Source: Bremia lactucae
Taxonomy: Eukaryota > Oomycota > Peronosporomycetes > Peronosporales > Peronosporaceae
Direction of reading: 5' to 3'
NCBI RefSeq assembly: GCF_004359215.1
Contig: NW_027152022.1
Span: forward strand, 27,273-91,272
Length of the DNA: 64,000 nucleotides
Shown here piece after piece: positions 3,456 to 32,566 of this stretch (the stretch's first letter is position 1; each line of letters begins with the position of its first letter). Made by a program: the position numbers and the translations under genes. Under the pieces are notes generated by a model. That model saw only the letters and a program-made list of their open reading frames with translations. It made no database searches and had not been told where the DNA came from.

Positions 3456-4427
3456 GTGGTGGTGTCTTTGATGACAAAATATTTCGACTGGTCTCAGATC
3501 GAGACTCCAGATTCACGGCGGACTTTTGGCAATTTGTGTTTAAATCTGTTTAAAATGTCAACTTCTGACCTTCCTGATACAGATGGTCAGACAGAACGTA
3601 CAGATCGTATCCTCGAAGAGATACTTCGCGAATACATCCACTCTTTTAGGAGTTAGAGCGAGTTCTTGCCGATAGTAAAGTTTGCCATCAAAAATTTAGT
3701 GCATGCTTCTACAAAGCATACATTATTTTTCGTGTACGGCTTACGCGATCCACGCATACTTACCTTGCTTGAGAGTAGCATTTATTCAAGGAAGGGAGGG
3801 ACTCGCTCGAGTAAATAACAATCTAGCTCTTGCTCATCACGTTTGAACCAACGTTCAATGCGAAGGATACCAATGTTGATTCAATCTACATTGAAGCGGA
3901 CAAACTTAGTAATAGCGATAACGGTATTGCTGCCTTTAGTGACGATGCTGAAATACTCAGCATCGAAACCAATGATATTAGTGAGAGCAGTAATGCTCTC
4001 AATAGTAAGGAGAATGACATCTCCGCAGTGAGCACCAGTCACACTAAAGACAAAAACAAAACCGAGTCAGCAGGAGAATTCCTGCTGGCTAGAGAAACAG
4101 TGGTCCATTTTGTACAGGATTATATCGCTGACGCGGTGGGCCGACATAATCGGAACTCTGACAAATTGGAAGAGCAAAATTGTTTCATTTAATGTTTACG
4201 ACCTAGTCCTACTGGCTACAGTTAATCTACATAAACATGTAGTGACGGATGTGGGCAGCAATAAATTACTGCCCAGGCATGTCGGCTCGTTTCGTGTACT
4301 ACATCGCCAACGCAGCGCGTACACGATCGATCTGCCTCGTAAGATTCGTAAACATTCTACATTTTATGTCGGGCGTCTCCACCCGTACCATCAGTACGAC
4401 GCTTCTCCCGATTGTGAATCACCCTAG
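3456..4427 (+). pseudogene. Integrase C-terminal half, family D/A (D0)
   Basis: Integrase inserts the DNA copy into the genome. The fragment starts inside the catalytic core (VSLMTKYFDWSQIETPDSR matches the D-D region around SDRDxRFTAEFW of A1), keeps DTDGQTERTDRILEEILRE including the catalytic Glu, then has a long Ser/Asp-rich linker open at 3830-4192, then the GPY/F domain at 4200-4400 (DLVLLATVNLHKHVVTDVGS, FRVLHRQRSAYTIDL, TFYVGRLHPYHQY). At least three frameshifts. B1 is inserted at its left edge. Confidence 0.87.
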
Positions 4428-9936: not shown

Positions 9937-10481
9937 TGTAACGGGATAAAGTTGCCCTATGTTACATAGTCCCCGTTAAGTACACTTGGTATACTTAAAG
10001 GGAACTTTGTAACGTAGGGTAACTTTAGCCTTTAATGGTCAATAACTTAAATAAAGTAATTAGACCCGGTTTACATTTGTGACCCACCCTTGTGTATGAG
10101 ATGCACATAGGTGCAATCACATTAGGAGGGATGACGCCTAGCGTCATCCGCTACGCGAGGTATCTAGAAAGATACACTCGTAATACATTGTTAATGTTAT
10201 CTACAGAGATGACATTTTTGATTGGTAAAAATAGGTATTTATATTTAATGGATAAATATAAATCAGTCTGAAAACTGCTTTCTACTTAGTAAGTGCGCAC
10301 GAGGAGCGGATCACCGCTTTCGTGACGACACTTTAGAGTACCTAGTGCGTTGGGTGAAGGCCGCTAAGGCGCCCACCACATCTACCTCACTGCACGCAAG
10401 AAAAGACGGCCTAACCGTTTCCTCGCTGTACTAAGGTGCGTGTCTAAGTAGAGCGTGACCGCAAAGACGTGCCCGCCTACA
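9937..10481 (+). repeat. 5' LTR, family C (C1)
   Basis: TGTAACGGGATAAAGTTGCC to GTGCCCGCCTACA, 545 bp. It matches the minus-strand LTR at 35951-36450 end to end and the 3' LTR of C1 from about 10110 onward. Confidence 0.88.
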
Positions 10482-10593: not shown

Positions 10594-11592
10594 GTGGCAG
10601 GGCACTTGGCGCATGGACTTGGTGAACAAGCCCTGGCCAGGCTTGTAGGCAGTCCTCCTGAGCAACATGTTGCTCAGTTGGAGCAGTTTAAGGCATTTTT
10701 GCTCGGACAGCGCAGAGCCGCGTCCGAGGCACAGAGCCATACTGCGGCGGAGTCCGTCACTCAGACTCAGGATGAGCTGAGGCATGACTAGGCTCGGTGC
10801 GAGGCTCTCAACAGGACTGTTGAGATGCTCTCTGCCCGGCCGCATCAGCCGAGGCCCATTCGGATGGACCCTACCAAGTTCGATGGAACTGCAGCGCACA
10901 CGATTGTATACTGGCTGTTGCGCAGCTCATCGAGGACGACAGCCGGATGTGTTGTACGCTATATCACATCTGCACGGTAAGGCCTCAGAGTGGGCTTACT
11001 CGGCGTTTATGGCGGACAGAAAGCGTTCCCTACATGGGCGATCTTTAAGAAAAAGATTCGCGCCATGTACCAGCCGCCGAACAACGAAGTGTTGCTTTAG
11101 GCGCGCTTCTTTGGAGCGCGACAGGCGAAGCGATCTCTGCAAGAATATGTGCAGGAGATGCGCTCGCTGTCGGCGTCCACTACCGTAGGTCCGATTCCAG
11201 AGCACATTAAGGTACCCACATTTATGAACGGACTACGACATGGCCCATCGCGACAGACCTTTCAGAAAGGTGCCGTGGACGATGGAAGAGGCAATTTAGT
11301 TAAGGAGCGATCCCACAACAGTGCATTTGCGACAGCTTGGTATAAGCCGTCGGCCGAGAGGTTAGATGCCACTCCCATGGAGTTGGGCAATGCAGACGTT
11401 GTCTCCTATAAATGCGGCAAGCGCGGCCATAGGATGGCTCGCTGCTATGCCAGGGTCCCTGCTGGGGCAAAGGTGCCCAGTAAGACGACCCCCTTCCCAA
11501 AGGGCGATGGCAAGAACCAGCGTGCAAAACGCATGAGTTCGGCATCGACCACTAAGGGGTCGGGAAATGCAGGAGCGCAGCAGGGACTCTGA
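10594..11592 (+). pseudogene. gag, family C (C1)
   Basis: Most of the Gag lies in one frame, with four in-frame stops and a shifted central patch. Blocks: LEQFKAFLLGQRRAASEAQS, PIRMDPTKFDGTAAHTIVYW, then (shifted frame) VLYAISHLHGKASEWAYSAF, then AMYQPPNNEVLL, GARQAKRSLQEYVQEMRSLS and MNGLRHGPSRQTFQKGAV. The zinc knuckle at about 11405-11445 reads SYKCGKRGHRMARC, where the first Cys of C-x2-C-x4-H-x4-C is replaced by Ser. A basic tail follows. The start at 10594 is the first in-frame Met; the true start is uncertain. Confidence 0.8.
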
Positions 11593-12632: not shown

Positions 12633-13860
12633 TTGGTGGACTGTTGCTCGTCGTCCGCAATGGATGAGAGCGTCCTAGAAACGGACAAAAATAAACGAAT
12701 CGCTGCTCAAGGCTGGGAGGCCTTGAGAGACAGTCCGTTCTTTGAGATTTTGTGGAAACATCGCGGTGCGTTCTCAGGAGATGTGCCGAGCCGCCTATCA
12801 GTAGATAGGGACATCGGGAACGAAATAGACCTCGAATCTGGCACCAAATATTGTGTGACCAGGAAATGGTCGTTGCCGAAAGAACAAGTCGATTATATCG
12901 ATGAGTTCTTCGATAATTGAGCCAAGGCGGAACATGTGCGTGAGAGCAAATCGCCTCACTGCAGCCCGACCTTTTGTGTGCGTAAAACCACAGGTGGATG
13001 GCGCGTGGCTCTTGCTTACAATAAACTAAACACGGCGACCATACCGGCTCAAACGCCAATCCCGCGGAAAGTTGTTTTGTTGAGCTCCATGGGAAACTTA
13101 ACTATCTTTTCCGCGTTGTATCAAAAGGATGGCTACTATCAGGTACTCATGAGAGAGTCCGATGTAGCCAAAACGGCATTTAGCCCCCCAAGCGGTATGC
13201 TTTGAGAGTGGATTGCGATGCCCCAAGGTTTGAAAAACGCACCAGCGACATATAACCGAATGGTGGCTCACGTGATGCGTCAGCACCGTGCCTACGCGCC
13301 CATTACTTTGACGATGTATTCGTGCATAGGGCCGAGGACGGGCTGAGCGCAAAAGAGTCACACAAGCGTCATTTAGACGCTGTGTTGCGGACTTTGAAGA
13401 ATGTACGTCAACTTGCAAAAGTGCGTCATAGGGGTCCCCGAGTTACCTGTGCCGGGCGGCATCGTAGGTACACATGGTGTACGACAGAACCAGACAAGGT
13501 AAAATAGGTAAAGGAATGGCCGTTCCCCCGGCATGTGAAGGATTTGCGCCAATTCCTAGAGCTCGCTAATTACTTGCATAAATATAGCAAGAATAATGCG
13601 GAGAAAACTAAACCATTATCTGACCTCCTTAAAAAGGGCGCAGAATGGGTTTGGTTAAAAGAACAAGATGATGTTTTCACATCTGTGAAGCAATCTCTTG
13701 TAGAGGCACCGGTCTTGCATTTCCAGACGCGGATAAGCCCTTTAGCGTCGTCTGCGATGCAAGTAATTTTGCAATCGGCAGCGCGCTCATGTAGAAGGAT
13801 GACGACGGCGTTAACCGCGTCATCTCTTATCAGTCCCGGCTTTTAAAAGCCGCGGAACTG
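12633..13860 (+). pseudogene. Reverse transcriptase, family C (C1)
   Basis: RT domain with EIDLESGTKYCVTRKWSLPK, SPTFCVRKTTGGWRVALAYN, IPAQTPIPRK, FSALYQKDGYYQVL, MPQGLKNAPATYNRMV and YFDDVFVH (about 13304). Motif A normally reads SALDL; here the catalytic Asp is Tyr. The YFDD box is kept. The tether motif VKEWPFPRHVKDLRQFLELA and LSDLLKKGAEWVW follow at 13505-13660. Stops at about 12918, 13204 and 13505; a frameshift near 13300. Confidence 0.87.
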
Positions 13861-14112
13861 ATTTAATCCGTGCATGACAAAGAGCTACTTCCAATAAAGT
13901 ATGCTCTTGTCAAGTTTCGTGTGCACCTATCGGTTTTTAAGGATCACGCATCACTGCGGACCGCAATAAACTCACCGCACTTCTCGCCTAGAATGGCGAG
14001 ACGGCTTACATTCTTCTCTGCATTTAATTTCATGTTGAATACAAGCCGGTAAGTCAAATGTCTTGGCTGGCGCTTTATCGCGCAGACCAGACTTTGAGGT
14101 TAGACATCAGGA
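13861..14112 (+). pseudogene. RNase H, family C (C1)
   Basis: VHDKELLPIKYALVKFRVHL, then DHASLRTAINSPHFSPRMAR and LTFFSAFNF, ending in LAGALSRRPDFEV. The first part of RNase H (13700-13850) is frameshifted. Ancestrally it was continuous with RT. Confidence 0.8.
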
Positions 14113-15575
14113 AAGTGTGTCTAGTGCTAAAGCACAAATTCAGCCGTCAACGTTGGCAGCCATGAAGGCATACCACGTGACGAGCTCAGTAGCCTCTGAA
14201 ATAAAAGAGAGCTACAGTCAGGACAAACCATTGTCACCTGCTGTTGGATCACTTTGGAGGACGAAATGTAACCCTTCCGTCGCACTTAAAAGCTAAGCTA
14301 AATCGCTTTAGCTACAGCGATGACCCGTTATGGCATCAGCTGTCACCTTGTAATATCTTGAGAATCTATGTACAGATCTCAAGCTTATGATGTTTCACGA
14401 GCTCCAAAATTCGCCATCAAGCGGGCATCTGGGCCGTGAAAAGATATTCTTACAAGTGTCAGAGGAACTTTGGGTGCCCCACCTATATAGATGGTTGGCC
14501 AACTATATTCGCTCTTGCGAACAGTGTCAGCGCATTCAGCCTGCACCGATCAGCAGCGCGCCACGGAAGCCGCTACCGATTCCAACAAACTGTTGGAAGT
14601 TACTAAGTCTGGACTACATGTTTGGCATGCCGCCCGATCATAAGGGTCGGACGGGCTCATCGTCTTTGTAGACAGACAGAGCAAAATGGTAAATTTAGCA
14701 CCATGTCAAACATCGATCACAGGCAAGGAGGCAGCTCTCTAGTTCCTTGATCATGTTTACCGGCTACACCGGATGCCCGAGTCCATAGTATCGGACCAAG
14801 ACCCGCAATTTACGTCTGGTTTCTGGCGACATGTGTTTGAGCTGCTAGGTAGCAAGCTTCACATGTCGACTGCAGATCATCCCCAGACTGATGGCTAAAC
14901 AGAACGTGCCAACCAATTCGTGTCGGATGTCTTACGCACTATAGCAGCTCACAAAAAATGGAGCAAGCAATTGTTCTTTGTGAAGTTCGCTTTGTATAAC
15001 AGTGTCCACGCTAGTACGGGTGAGACACCGTTTTATATCAGCGGACTGCGCCATCCTCGGACGCCAGTCTCGTTTGTGCGCAGCCCGAGTCTTAGTGGGG
15101 GAGGGCCCCTCACTATGCTCGGTGTGAAAGAAGGAGATAGTTTCGTCAATATGACGATGACCCGCGAGGGTATCTTCTCAAATAAAAAAACTTGCCCTAG
15201 TGGCCCTGCCAGTATAGCAGTGGTCAATAAAACTACGTCCTTTGACCGACCTCTCGGCGGTGTCATTGGCGAGCTTGATGCTCAACGCTTTGTGGATGAG
15301 CGATTAGCCATCACACCTAAAGTCCGTGACGCGATGGCAAGCGCACAGGATAAGCAAAAAGAATATGCAGTCGCAAAATAATGAACGCTTCAGAGTGGAT
15401 GAAAAAGTACTATTAAGTACTACTAACCTACCTAGAAATGCAATTTCTGTACTACTTGGAGGTACTGCGAAGTTGTTGCCGCGTTTCATTAAGCCCTTTA
15501 CGATGATAGAAGAGGTTGGAGACCTAACATTATAGGCTCACTCTCCCCCCGTATATGAAGACGCACCCTGTATTT
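14113..15575 (+). pseudogene. Integrase, family C (C1)
   Basis: Zinc-binding HHCC domain at 14387-14535 (MMFHELQNSPSSGHLGREKI with CEQCQ), catalytic core with LDYMFGMPPDHKGR, SDQDPQFTSGFWRHVFELL and STADHPQTDG-stop-TERAN (the D, D, E residues are all present, but a TAG lies before the Glu), then NSVHASTGETPFYISGLRHP, a linker (VVNKTTSFDRPLGGVIGELD) and the GPY/F domain (about 15390-15600) ending HPVFYVGRLKRY. Four or more frameshifts and stops. Confidence 0.87.
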
Positions 15576-15984
15576 TACGTGGGTCGTCTGAAACGGTATG
15601 TAGACCCAATTACCCCCATCCGTCTAAGGAGACAGATGGTGACGCCGACTGTGAGTCGAGCATCGTTCGGGTGAGGGAGACGGAGAAAGCAAAAATTTAT
15701 TAGCCGACCGACTCCTCCCACCACAACAAGGACATCAAGCGAGTAATGCGGATCTCTCAGCATTATCCGCTCAAAAAGGTCCAAGCGAGTCTTCAGGCGT
15801 TCATATCCCTGACGAGCCTTCGCTCGGACATCACAAAGATCCGAGGCCAGTCGCGAGACTTGACCCTCGAGATCCGCAATACGTCGTTCAGAAGCGCTTA
15901 ACGCCTGTGACTAACCGAAAAGGTAACGCAGCCGCGAGAAGGTGGACGAAATTGCCACTCCTATCGGGCGCCGCCTGCACTGAT

Positions 15985-16440
15985 GGGTGCGGGTGGGAAT
16001 CAACGCTTTCTTGTTGGAAGGTTGCTTGCCCACCGCTCCAGTAGGGCCGAGGACGGGCTGAGCGAAGTGAGTGCTTCTAGATAACAAGCTATGACGTGAT
16101 AGTGTACTGGATCTTGTAAAGTTTTCGGAATTTGTTAATATTTGTGTGTGAGAACAGCTTTCGCTGATACCCTCCAAATAGTACTTCGTAAAGTAATATT
16201 CTTCAAATATTATCTACCTTTTCGATAATATATTAATTGACAGTCTATAAGTCTTAACTAGATAAGACGTAATCATAGATGGTATGTCTAAGTGAGGAAA
16301 AGTTATCAGATCCTCGTCCAATAGAAATGTTACCCGAAGAGTTTCGACGCTTGGGAACCGATTGATACCCTACGTATTGATGTGCCCGGCTTCGTGGCTG
16401 ACTATGAATAGGAGCACCAGCTGAGGCCTCTTCGCTAGTT
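15985..16440 (+). pseudogene. Chromodomain of pol, interrupted (C1)
   Basis: QRFLVGRLLAHR at about 16007-16040, then foreign filler at 16042-16305, then the domain resumes as ILVQ..YPKSFDAWEPIDTL and IDVPGFVADYE. C2 carries the uninterrupted form (31430-31625). Chromodomains at the end of integrase direct insertion toward marked chromatin. Confidence 0.8.
16042..16305. other. Patchwork filler inside the C1 chromodomain
   Basis: About 264 bp with no place in the chromodomain. It starts with 23 bp identical to C1 RT 13327-13349, includes a piece of family A LTR in minus orientation (about 16190-16258) and 23 bp matching family A RT (16265-16287; compare 43650 and 49813). The rest, including 16065-16185, I cannot assign. 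Confidence 0.65.
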
Positions 16441-17493
16441 TCAAATAGACTAGCAGAAGCAGCGTTGTGAGACGAAACAGGGGGTACAGTTCCGCCCATA
16501 ATCTCTTTCACACGCAAGCGGGTGAAATTAATTCGTTGCGACCGCTGTTCATCGCATCGGAACTCGGATGAATGCGACAAAAGAATATCGCCTCGTATTG
16601 GTCGGGCGTTTCATTCGAACGCAACACGACCGGGATCGTGAAAATACGCCTAAGCGTTTTTCCTGAGCCCTCCATGACTTGAAGACGCCATAATATTTAT
16701 GTGCGTCTAGAAGAGCGCGCTCTAGGAGCGACGCTCTTGGCCCGTTTAAACGAGGCCATTTAGATGGAGGGGGCATCTTTGGAATGCCACCCGTCACATA
16801 GCCACGTTCTAAACGACTGGCTTGTGACATCGACTGAGCACGTTCACGTGTCGTCGGCGGAGCTTTAGGCTCAGAATCCTCTATGTCAGAACCATTATGG
16901 ATAATGGTCTGAGCATAAGGCGTTGTGGTTTTACCCAACAAAGAAGCTGCTGCGCCTTTATGGGCAGCGCTCTCGTTACCTGTCGTTTGTGCTATCCAGC
17001 GCAGAACGAGACAGCATTCGTAAATGTTGCTGTTTCCATGTTGTGAGCCATGAGAGAAGTTTGGATGGGCAATAATGCGCCACCATCCTTCCTCATGAGC
17101 TCGTTTTCCGTATCAATACTATGAGGTGACGGCAACGGTGTCGACTCATTGTAGTCAACAATGGGCGACGAATCAGCATCCTAACTGTTAAAGTGGGACG
17201 GATCCTTTAGCCCCATTAACGCGACAGCAGCAGTAGCTGTCCACGTCTCGACTAAGGCATTGGACGCGGCCGGCGAGTTAACGTGGCGCGTGCGCTTAGC
17301 GCGAGGTTGAGTGGGCGTCTTCTCAGACGACCCACCAACATTGCCTCTTTTAAATGGCATCTTTGGCGCCGTGTATGAAAACACAGGTCGCTCGAGTGAA
17401 TGAGAGAACTAGCGGCGCGTTAAGCAGCTCGCAGTTCCTCCTTCCTCTTTGACGAAATTTTGAATGTAAATTCGTTCATAAAGGGGGAGATGG

Positions 17494-17873
17494 TGTAACA
17501 TTCACATTAGGGGGACGACATGTCGCGTCATCCGTCTAGAAAGGTATGCTCGCAATACATTGTTAATGTTATCTACAGAGATGACATTTTTGATTGGTAA
17601 AAATAGGTATTTATATTTAATGGATTATTATAAATCAGTCTGAAAACTGCTTTCTACTTAGTAAGTGCGCACGAGGAGCGGATTACCGCTTTCGTGACGA
17701 CACTTTACTAGAGTACCTAGTGCGTTGGGTGAGGTCGCTAAGGCGCCCACCACAGCTTCCTCACTGCACGCAAGAATAGACGGCCTGACCGTTTCCTCGC
17801 TAAGCTAGGGTGTGGGTCTATGTAGAGCGTGGCCGCATTAAGACGTGGCCGCATTAAGACGTGCCCGCCCACA
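17494..17873 (+). repeat. 3' LTR, family C (C1)
   Basis: TGTAACATTCACATTAGGG to GTGCCCGCCCACA, 380 bp, after a polypurine tract (aaagggggagatgg, 17480-17493). Compared with the 5' LTR an internal block after TGTAAC is missing; a 20-bp motif (ggccgcattaagacgtg) is tandemly duplicated near 17830-17865. Confidence 0.85.
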
Positions 17874-18153
17874 CTGTTACAACACCTTCCTAGTCTTCCG
17901 TTATCGTCAGCCTTCGTGCGTAATTTCTTCGTTGAAAAACCTTCTTGCCACGCAAAGTTTTGTTTTGCCTCCATCGCTTTCTCATTGTCTCATGAATGTG
18001 TTCTGGGGGTTGAGCAATCGGCATGATGAAGCCCGAGTATTAATGTTGGCGGATTTGTAGCGATGCACACCCTGGAAAAACTCAAATAAATTTTACGTTG
18101 TAACAAAACCTGTTTCCTATTGTAATTTATTTTTTGTGGAATGTGGCTATAAC
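17874..18153. other. Right target copy of C1, D1 LTR end, and unassigned flank
   Basis: 17874-17878 (ctgtt) is the right target-site copy of C1 and 17879-17881 (aca) is the end of the D1 LTR, so 17882 onward is the sequence into which D1 inserted (its target copy should start acacc). The remaining 270 bp matches nothing else I recognise here. An open frame at 17829-18026 shows no domain. Confidence 0.6.
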
Positions 18154-27228: not shown

Positions 27229-27736
27229 TGTAATGAGGTGTCCCGTCACATAAATATTATTTCCTATAAGAGGAATAATAAATATTTTTTCGATGAGAGA
27301 AAATAAATCAAGCAGTACAAAATTATAATCTTTTTATTAATTTGACTTAATAGTTCCAATATTTCCAAATTTAGTAATAATGACGCAATAAAGCATTAGT
27401 TCTATCAATTAGTCAATTTAAGTTTAAATCAACCCCGCCAATCGTTACAAAACAGGATTAGGCGTTGCGCAAGGAGGCGCATTGCAAAGTTATCCATTAA
27501 ATAAATAGGCCAGTAGATAGAAGATCGTTATGAAGGAACTTAATAGATTCGTACAGTTTTATTTTTCTCTATTCTAAAGCCTTAGAATTTACCTTTAGTA
27601 GCTAAGACTTCTTAGCTACTCAGAATCTTCCTCTGCACGTCCTGTACGTGAAGTAGTTGAGGCGCTTCACCTTCACTGTAATCAGTGTAGGTTGACTAAT
27701 ACTGTCAACAGCACTAGCATAGGGTGCCCCGTTACA
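27229..27736 (+). repeat. 3' LTR, family D (D2)
   Basis: TGTAATGAGGTGTCCCG to GTGCCCCGTTACA, 508 bp. It aligns in reverse with the D1 LTR (9319-9936). It is preceded by a polypurine tract and not followed by a primer binding site, so it is a 3' LTR. Two units of the palindromic repeat seen expanded in D1 are present near 27255-27300. Confidence 0.87.
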
Positions 27737-30769: not shown

Positions 30770-31632
30770 AATATGTTTACGCTTTAGAGTGGGAGAAAAA
30801 GTACTATTAAGTAATGCTATCCTACCTAAAAATGCAGTTTTTATTCGTAAACGGCTATATAAAATGCGGCAATTATTTACCCGGAGGTACTACGAAATAA
30901 TTTCCGCATTTTTTATAGCCGTTTACGGTTGTCGAAGAGGTTGGAGACCTAAACTATAGGTTCACCTTTCCCCCATATATGGAGACGCACCGTATTTCAC
31001 GTGAGTCGTCTGAAACGGTACATTGATCCAGGAGAGATCACACATACCCATCCGTCCAAGGAGACCTATGGTGACGCCGACTGTGAGTCGAGCGTCGATC
31101 TGGTAATGGAGACGGGGAAGATGAAAAACTTTCAGCGAATGACTCTTCCGACCACTATACGGGCTTGAACAGCGAGGAATATCACGCAGGTAACGCGGAC
31201 CCCTCAGCATCAACTTTTCAAAAAGGTCCAGCCGAAGTTTCAGGCGTCCGTAACCCTGACGATCCTTTGCGCGGACATCGTGAAGATCCGAAGTCAGTCG
31301 CGAGACTTGACTTTCGAGATCCCCGATACGTCGATCAGCAGCGCTCAGCGCCTGCGACTGAACAGATGCGGGATAGGCTGCCGCAAATAGATAAGCGAAA
31401 TCGCCGCTCCTATCGGGCGCCACTTGCACTGACGAATGCTACTGGGAACCAACGCTTCCTTGTTGGAAGGCTGGTTGCTCACCGTTTCGTGCTGCGTAAA
31501 GATCAAATTCTTGTCCAGTGGAAAGGATACCCAAAGCGCTTTGACTCTTGGGAACCGGTCGACACCCTGCGCGTCGACGTACCGGGTCTGGTGTCTGCCT
31601 ACGAGAAGGAGCACCAGTTGTCGCTTCGGTAG
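30770..31632 (+). pseudogene. Integrase GPY/F, linker and chromodomain (C2)
   Basis: FRVGEKVLLSNAILPKNAVF starts the GPY/F domain, interrupted by an inverted duplication (30846-30927). The linker and chromodomain are open at 31165-31632: SVARLDFRDPRYVDQQRSAP, then NQRFLVGRLVAHRFVLRKDQ, ILVQWKGYPKRFDSWEPVDT and VPGLVSAYEKEHQL. The chromodomain aromatic cage residues are present. In the same 31165-31632 interval the minus strand is also open apart from one TAG. C1 shows the same overlap. Confidence 0.87.
30846..30927. repeat. Inverted duplication (palindrome) in the C2 integrase
   Basis: Arms 30846-30878 and 30895-30927 (33 bp, about 3 mismatches) around a 16 bp loop. The right arm corresponds to the native integrase sequence (compare 63800-63838); the left arm is a reversed copy that replaced native bases. 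Confidence 0.9.
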
Positions 31633-32566
31633 TTTCGTATGGACTAGCAGGAGCGGCCTGATGAGTTAAAACAGGGGGCAGAGTACCGCCCATGATTTCT
31701 CTCACACGCAAGCAAGCGAAGTTAAGTTAAGTCGCTGCGACCATTGTTCTACCACATTGGAATGTGGCTGAAAGCGGCACAGAAGTTCCGCTTCGTAATA
31801 GTCGGTTGATTCATTCGAATGCAACACGACCGGGATCGTAGATACACGACCAAGTGATTCCACTTGAGCCTTCCACGGACTAGAGATGCAATAATAATTA
31901 TGTGCATCTAGAGAAGCGCGCTCTAGGAGCGACGCACTCGTTCTTTCCGAATAAGGTCATTCGGATGGAGGTGCATCGGTGGTATGCCACCAGTCACATA
32001 GCCACGTTCAATTCGATTGGCTTATGACACCGACCGGACACGCTCAGTTGCCGTCGGTAGAACTTATGCTGAGGCTCTTCTGCGCAGACCCATTGTAATT
32101 TATGGTCTGAACGGCAGATGTTGTGGCTCTTCCCAATTGAGAAGCAGCTGCGCCTTTATGGGCAGCGCTCTCATGAATGGTCGGTGCGCTAGCTAGCGCA
32201 GATGACGAGATAGTTGCTTTGTTGACGTAAGGCAAGTTGGTTTTCGCAACGTTGGATGAGCGAAGTTTGAATGGACAATTCAGCGCTATCATTCTTCCTC
32301 ATGAGCTCGCTGTACTCATCACTATCATGAGGTGATGGCAGCGGTGTCGACTCATTGCAGTCAACAGTGACCGACGGGTCTACATCCTCACAGTGAAAGT
32401 GGGATTGATTTGTAAGTCCAGTTAGCGCGCCAGCAGCAGTAGCTGTCGGCGTTGTAACTGTGGCACTGAGCGACGGCGGTGTGTTAACGCGGCGCGTACG
32501 CTTCGTGCGTGGTTGTGAGGTCGTCTTTGCAGACGACTCACCATCTTTGCCCTTTCAAGGTGGCAT
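30962..32566 (-). pseudogene. Antisense ORF, family C (C2)
   Basis: Second copy of the C1 antisense gene. ATG at 32566 (MPP, then a TGA at codon 4), KGKDGESSAKTTSQPRTKRT, RRVNTPPS, TATAAGALTGL, VTVDCNESTPLPSPHDSDEY, SELMRK, all aligned with C1. The middle has RIERGYVTGGIPPMH, TIPVVLHSNES and REIMGGTLPPVLTHQAAPAS. The end is the coiled coil DRRIGDLESQVSRLTSDLHD with RLKLRLDLFEKLMLRGPRY. Conserved spacing and the few frame breaks over 1.6 kb argue that it was a real gene. The frame is pol codon + 1, as in C1. Confidence 0.72.

Follow-up and report, generated by a model that had tools for sequence, protein, structure and literature searches.

What might explain a long minus-strand reading frame that two decayed retrotransposon copies, C1 and C2, keep at their 3' ends in the oomycete Bremia lactucae? 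Both lie in the window analysed here, a stretch of 64,000 nucleotides (positions 27,273 to 91,272 of contig NW_027152022.1, forward strand), and both are decayed copies of one chromodomain Ty3/Gypsy element that is very common in the genome. Sequence comparison indicates that the family carries a real minus-strand protein gene of about 480-500 codons, of which C1 and C2 keep the remains. The coding status of this antisense gene is established by evidence from sequence; its promoter and the nuclear location and function of its product we infer. Taking coding and function jointly, we think it rather probable that this is a genuine antisense gene encoding a nuclear, oligomeric regulator of the element that would bind nucleic acid or chromatin. 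A preliminary description of the window, made from the letters alone, had placed the same minus-strand gene in both copies, and its two start codons were located as follows.

15624 to 17360, minus strand: antisense gene of C1, decayed (several frame changes, stops and one insert), with its ATG at 17358-17360 and the stop that closes this frame at 15624-15626; it has homologues.
31060 to 32566, minus strand: antisense gene of C2, decayed, with its ATG at 32566 and its last matched residues near 31062.
16040 to 16292, no strand assigned: AT-rich insert of about 253 bp that splits the C1 antisense gene and the pol chromodomain.

The C1 start codon, at 17360, is directly preceded by GGCGCCAA. Five segments (KRTR[HR]VN, NESTPLPSPH, IPVVL.SNE, EIMGGT and a C-terminal segment with QVSRL) stand in identical order in C1 and C2, as had been proposed, with IPVVL.SNE frame-shifted in both. 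The decay, put earlier at about one stop and few shifts for each copy, had been understated. Compared over 429 amino acids with the open copy P0002, C1 falls into six matched pieces in three reading frames, with four frame changes and one in-frame stop besides its foreign 253-bp insert, and C2 into three pieces with two frame changes and five stops. The antisense genes of both C1 and C2 are pseudogenes.

Relatives of the protein were sought with three queries, each search scoring the 8000 candidates richest in common 5-residue words: the protein of copy L010 returned 16 proteins, an alignment 23, and a distant relative 14 including itself. Five homologues of 480-559 amino acids span the whole query at 48-75% identity, one from Peronospora effusa and the others from other assemblies, and a relative of 447 amino acids from P. 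farinosa covers 70% of the query. All named homologues belong to P. effusa or P. farinosa and are annotated as 'unnamed protein product'; no named match outside Peronospora appeared among the 8000 best word-sharing candidates of each search, the distant-relative query included, a scope that leaves room for homologues in Phytophthora. No relatives were confirmed in viral contigs or prokaryote genomes. By these matches, the antisense protein family is conserved in another genus.

Is the frame itself selected? We compared 10 C1-type with 5 C2-type copies by the ratio of nonsynonymous to synonymous substitution (dN/dS, Nei-Gojobori), with within-group change subtracted and 60 bootstraps. From 30 loci fetched, 25 in-frame C1-type copies served for dN/dS within the subfamily; 10 of the 25, taken for few stops or for length, gave the between-group ratios, 18 of the 25 gave the stop counts over the first 300 codons, and 15 were used for the overlap with pol and for resampling. 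The C2-type set comprised C2 of the window and four copies fetched from 40 scored. Over residues 1-300, which lie outside pol, net dN/dS is 0.45 in the antisense frame (bootstrap 0.30-0.65) and 0.80-1.25 in four other frames. Stops number 0.94 per 300 codons in the antisense frame against 11.6-23.1 in the other five frames of the 18 copies, which were found by their match to the antisense protein, a choice that lowers their stop count. Purifying selection acts on the antisense frame: it shows an excess of synonymous over nonsynonymous change, the check that the preliminary description had set. Stop counts, substitution ratios and homologues in another genus agree with its claim of a true protein-coding gene and not an accidental frame.

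The same description had put the gene behind pol. This holds for the first 300 codons, situated between the pol stop and the 3' long terminal repeat (LTR), but not for the 3' third, which shares its DNA with the end of pol, chromodomain included, on the other strand.

15536 to 16044, plus strand: C1 pol tail, read by eye, with the integrase end (VFYVGRLKRY), a spacer and the start of the chromodomain, antiparallel to the antisense gene; the piece at 15655-16044 has no Pfam match.
31165 to 31632, plus strand: C2 pol tail, lying opposite the antisense gene and within its span; its chromodomain (Chromo, 2e-7) falls at about 31462-31608.

The layout is intact in copy L029. It has an open pol end on the sense strand, with SH3_Tf2-1 and a chromodomain (PF00385, 6.7e-7) and a pol stop at antisense residue 309, so that an open chromodomain pol tail and an open antisense open reading frame (ORF), of 429 amino acids as it stands, occupy the same DNA. 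In the same copy, as measured in L054, the two genes share about 575 nucleotides tail to tail, including the pol chromodomain; the antisense frame meets one stop at residue 430 and ends at another at 501. Derived from the coordinates, the first codon positions of pol and antisense gene are opposed, and the second position of pol lies opposite the third of the antisense frame. At its C-terminus, P0014 of P. farinosa has 60 residues that correspond to the strand opposite the pol integrase end (65%, 4e-22), so the arrangement recurs in another genus.

Within the overlap, constraint switches strand: it lies on pol in the chromodomain and on the antisense frame in the part encoding the coiled coil and arginine/serine-rich (RS) tail. 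In the chromodomain segment (54-56 codons) dN/dS is 0.15 for pol (0.05-0.33), 0.34 for the pol mirror frame and 3.2 for the antisense frame (1.5-29); in the coiled-coil/RS segment (121 codons) it is 0.38 for the antisense frame (0.21-0.69), 0.32 for its mirror and 1.82 for pol (0.94-3.60). Each of the five C2-type copies taken singly gives the same pattern in raw ratios, pol being weakest in L072 (0.90, coiled-coil/RS segment). One nearly open frame per strand, with 1.07 stops each, runs through the overlap in the 15 copies, and the other frames have 6.9-11.2 stops. When codons were resampled synonymously with the pol protein kept, about 5 antisense stops were expected per copy against the 1.07 seen (P < 0.05 in 10 of the 15 copies under either codon model), a count that is biased because the copies had been found via the antisense protein.

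These results bear on two explanations that do without a functional protein. One is that the antisense frame stays open as a side effect of base composition or of the constraint on pol across from it; in its favour are the existence of the overlap, since overlapped frames can remain open by chance, and dN/dS within the subfamily, which is not far from 1. We nevertheless judge it highly improbable: no open frame lies opposite the first 300 antisense codons, within the spacer constraint falls on the antisense frame and spares pol, resampling predicts several times the stops observed, and conserved full-length homologues exist. Alternatively, the antisense RNA might be what matters and the ORF secondary, the RNA acting by pairing into double strands, by silencing or by disturbing transcription of the sense strand. 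A tail-to-tail overlap would yield double-stranded RNA, and in Phytophthora infestans small RNAs of both senses map along Gypsy elements (PMC3522703). RNA alone, however, does not account for the two separate segments in which amino acids are constrained and stops avoided, nor for the conservation of the full-length protein across genera, and we regard this explanation as improbable.

What kind of protein is it, then? Residues 1-30 are basic and residues 31-150 acidic, disordered and rich in serine and proline; a basic core, a linker, a long helix and an arginine/serine-rich end follow. Net charge in five homologues is +4 to +9 over residues 1-30, -11 to -16 over 31-150 and +4 to +11 in the SP/RS-rich C-terminal tail, and the basic core carries the conserved motifs PIPVVL..NET.D.YE and RSQR..FA. 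AlphaFold predicts a helix at 372-441, where per-residue confidence (pLDDT) is 90-96 between about 391 and 440; it also places three moderate helices within 199-275 and gives the rest little structure. The long C-terminal helix is a putative coiled coil, from this model and weak Pfam look-alikes, and by composition and predicted helices the protein looks nuclear. An origin from gag was considered but finds no support, though the ground is weak: a single gag piece was compared (hhalign probability 0.3%).

The role we favour is a best guess, modelled on accessory antisense proteins of retroviruses (HBZ) and plants. The antisense gene would be transcribed against pol from a promoter in its leader or in the 3' LTR; the protein would enter the nucleus through its basic ends, oligomerize via the long helix and bind nucleic acid or chromatin with its basic core and RS tail, and could there regulate how the element is transcribed, how its RNA is handled or how it integrates. 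The candidate start region is the leader.

17361 to 17493, minus strand: leader from the antisense ATG to the 3' LTR, alike among C1-type copies, a candidate antisense start region.

The C1 antisense gene thus begins about 130 bp from the 3' LTR. An initiator-like hexamer, TCATTC, lies at -43 in C1, and TCACTC lies near -38, and mostly at -46 too, in nine other C1-type copies; the TCACTC hexamer at most hints at an oomycete initiator. A real protein might instead serve the particle, or help the integration complex into the nucleus, as a Gag helper or as a factor for packaging or trafficking, and not regulate expression. The long helix and arginine-rich tail would fit an RNA-packaging protein too, and for plant antisense ORFs a role in moving the pre-integration complex has been discussed (PMC7264820). 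Two points, neither strong, speak against this: antisense transcription would uncouple dosage of the protein from Gag-Pol, and comparison of profiles does not tie the protein to a gag piece from the element. We consider such a role possible, if doubtful.

The regulator we prefer invites a further thought, offered tentatively and as unlikely: antisense protein and pol chromodomain could be viewed as a dual-coded pair of chromatin-directed parts, the chromodomain steering integration and the antisense regulator on the other strand limiting or timing expression. Since the two genes overlap tail to tail, the element could at one time either transcribe the antisense gene or make the pol tail, which would amount to a built-in copy-number switch.

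C1 is laid out in Gypsy order: between a pair of LTRs lie pieces of gag, reverse transcriptase, RNase H and integrase, most of them weak.

10114 to 10476, plus strand: 5' LTR, the part aligned with the other LTR; the true start is probably further upstream.
11101 to 11592, plus strand: gag piece, Retrotrans_gag just under cut-off, with a weak CCHC knuckle.
12921 to 13205, plus strand: reverse transcriptase piece (RVT_1), weak and decayed.
13508 to 14052, plus strand: RNase H pieces (RT_RNaseH_2, RT_RNaseH), weak and decayed.
14354 to 14671, plus strand: integrase zinc-binding domain (Integrase_H2C2).
17494 to 17881, plus strand: 3' LTR, aligned at 17499-17852 with 10114-10476 (87.5% over 368 columns), its TG...CA ends inferred.

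Pfam scores are 1.1e-4 for Retrotrans_gag, 0.013 for RVT_1, 2.7e-4 for RT_RNaseH and 1.2e-12 for Integrase_H2C2, the first three under the Pfam cut-offs, and no protease was recognized among the C1 pieces scanned with Pfam. The insert at 16040-16292 is otherwise found, among 40 copies scored, only at C220:458984-459225 (91%); an already interrupted copy was apparently itself copied onward. About 85 bp of it recurs widely, with at least 39 further matches listed. Twenty-two bases are identical between 13328-13349, in the reverse transcriptase region, and 16043-16064, at the left end of the insert, possibly through a template switch.

The host genome comprises 115.9 Mb; the published assembly has 115 Mb, 53 Mb of it Gypsy elements (PMC6570648). 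In searches at the DNA level, C1 and C2 were each scored at 40 places, window copies counted in and both numbers being lower bounds; at the protein level, 89 candidate places in the genome were scored and gave 97 matches. The copies examined were collected via the antisense-gene region, and family members without the gene would not show up among them. A full-length match to the antisense protein at C8:79985-81460 has 0 stops, L010 is open as far as a run of N, and three of the 30 copies picked by DNA similarity, C1 being among the 30, have a single open frame over the first 300 codons (L010, L014 and L029). In L054, near the start of its contig, the pol-tail/antisense-tail region is present twice (about 2700-2890 and 3570-3790), some 900 nucleotides apart. 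Six C2-type copies, represented by L069 (G000:C164:786600-788300), sit on six contigs and share 100% identity across 1701 bp, the next nearest copy being at 83%; either a broken copy multiplied in a burst very recently, or the assembler duplicated it.

Several of our own observations weigh against a selected gene for a nuclear regulator. The mirror of the antisense frame has an equally low dN/dS (0.46 over residues 1-300, 0.32 in the coiled-coil/RS segment), which is due to its third positions coinciding with those of the antisense frame; with 14.7 stops per 300 codons, it is excluded by stops alone. Pooled as one block, the overlap gives an antisense ratio of 0.85 (0.46-1.63), as a result of its two segments differing. 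Within the C1 subfamily, dN/dS is just mildly below 1 (medians 0.68-0.91, 300 pairs per region), as expected with most copies dead; these ratios are too near 1 to decide, and the comparison between subfamilies decided. The other 27 of the 30 DNA-picked copies have no single open frame over the first 300 codons. The six identical copies are broken in the antisense frame, the longest open frame on the antisense strand of L069 being 234 amino acids, so that the protein may be dispensable in cis, unless the six are an assembly artefact. No initiator-like hexamer occurs in the three C2-type leaders, and no domain or fold match backs the functional guess, no known family having been recognized.

How does this gene compare with those of other elements? 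To the antisense genes of LTR retrotransposons this family adds one from an unrelated group of hosts; it has a protein family of its own, exists in many copies and shows selection that can be measured. Unusually, some 575 nucleotides code for proteins on opposite strands, and the handover of constraint at the chromodomain border acts as an internal control for selection on both. Gypsy elements make up more than half of the B. lactucae contig sequence (PMC6570648), so that a protein encoded by such a family could play a part in how the genome grows. No paper on such an oomycete gene was found in the open-access literature, subscription papers being mostly outside the search, in line with the preliminary description, which knew of none.

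In HTLV-1 HBZ, an acidic N-terminal part, a basic centre and a coiled coil towards the end follow one another. The oomycete protein, antisense and of nuclear type, would share that layout by analogy only; HBZ is a nuclear antisense protein (PMC11963269), but the Pfam scan of the oomycete antisense proteins gave no bZIP match and no sequence relation was seen. Chronos is, like this element, a Ty3/Gypsy element of oomycetes (Peronosporales) with a chromodomain at the pol end (PMC5348765), as PF00385 in the pol tails of L029 and C2 shows here. Chronos has a second, archaeal-type RNase H (aRNH); none was recognized among 10 scanned pieces of the decayed C1, pieces 14039-14296 and 14205-14390 lying outside the scan. 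The word 'antisense' is absent from the main text of the Chronos paper.

Plant Ty3/Gypsy elements carry the antisense ORFs termed aORF-3R, namely gene23 of maize Grande and those of rice RIRE2, Silene Retand and PvRetro13 (PMC7264820). The likeness to Grande and RIRE2 drawn in the preliminary description is apt as an analogy: the plant ORFs also lie antisense between pol and the 3' LTR, are borne by families in several species and have no known function, and they are suspected to be nuclear, maize GENE23 being reported so (PMC7264820). The oomycete gene differs in overlapping the pol tail and chromodomain; its sequence was compared only with the Pfam model of Retand's domain. Retand's TRP28 (PF04195) is likewise a conserved antisense protein of recently active Gypsy elements, for which DNA binding has been suggested (PMC11963269), but PF04195 has no match in nine proteins of the oomycete family (hmmscan, E up to 10), and a six-frame genome search gave one match of 16.7 bits, under the 26.2 cut-off. 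Retand is moreover a non-chromovirus with a region of 2.9-6.6 kb between POL and 3' LTR, and the word 'overlap' is absent from the main text of its paper (PMC11963269). Boty/BcGypsy1, compared by description, is a Gypsy element from Botrytis cinerea, likewise a filamentous plant pathogen, and bears brtn as an additional antisense gene (PMC7264820, PMC8365987). The closest known things are these plant aORFs and Boty brtn; antisense genes are known in some plant and fungal elements, and this protein family and its overlap with pol appear to be new.
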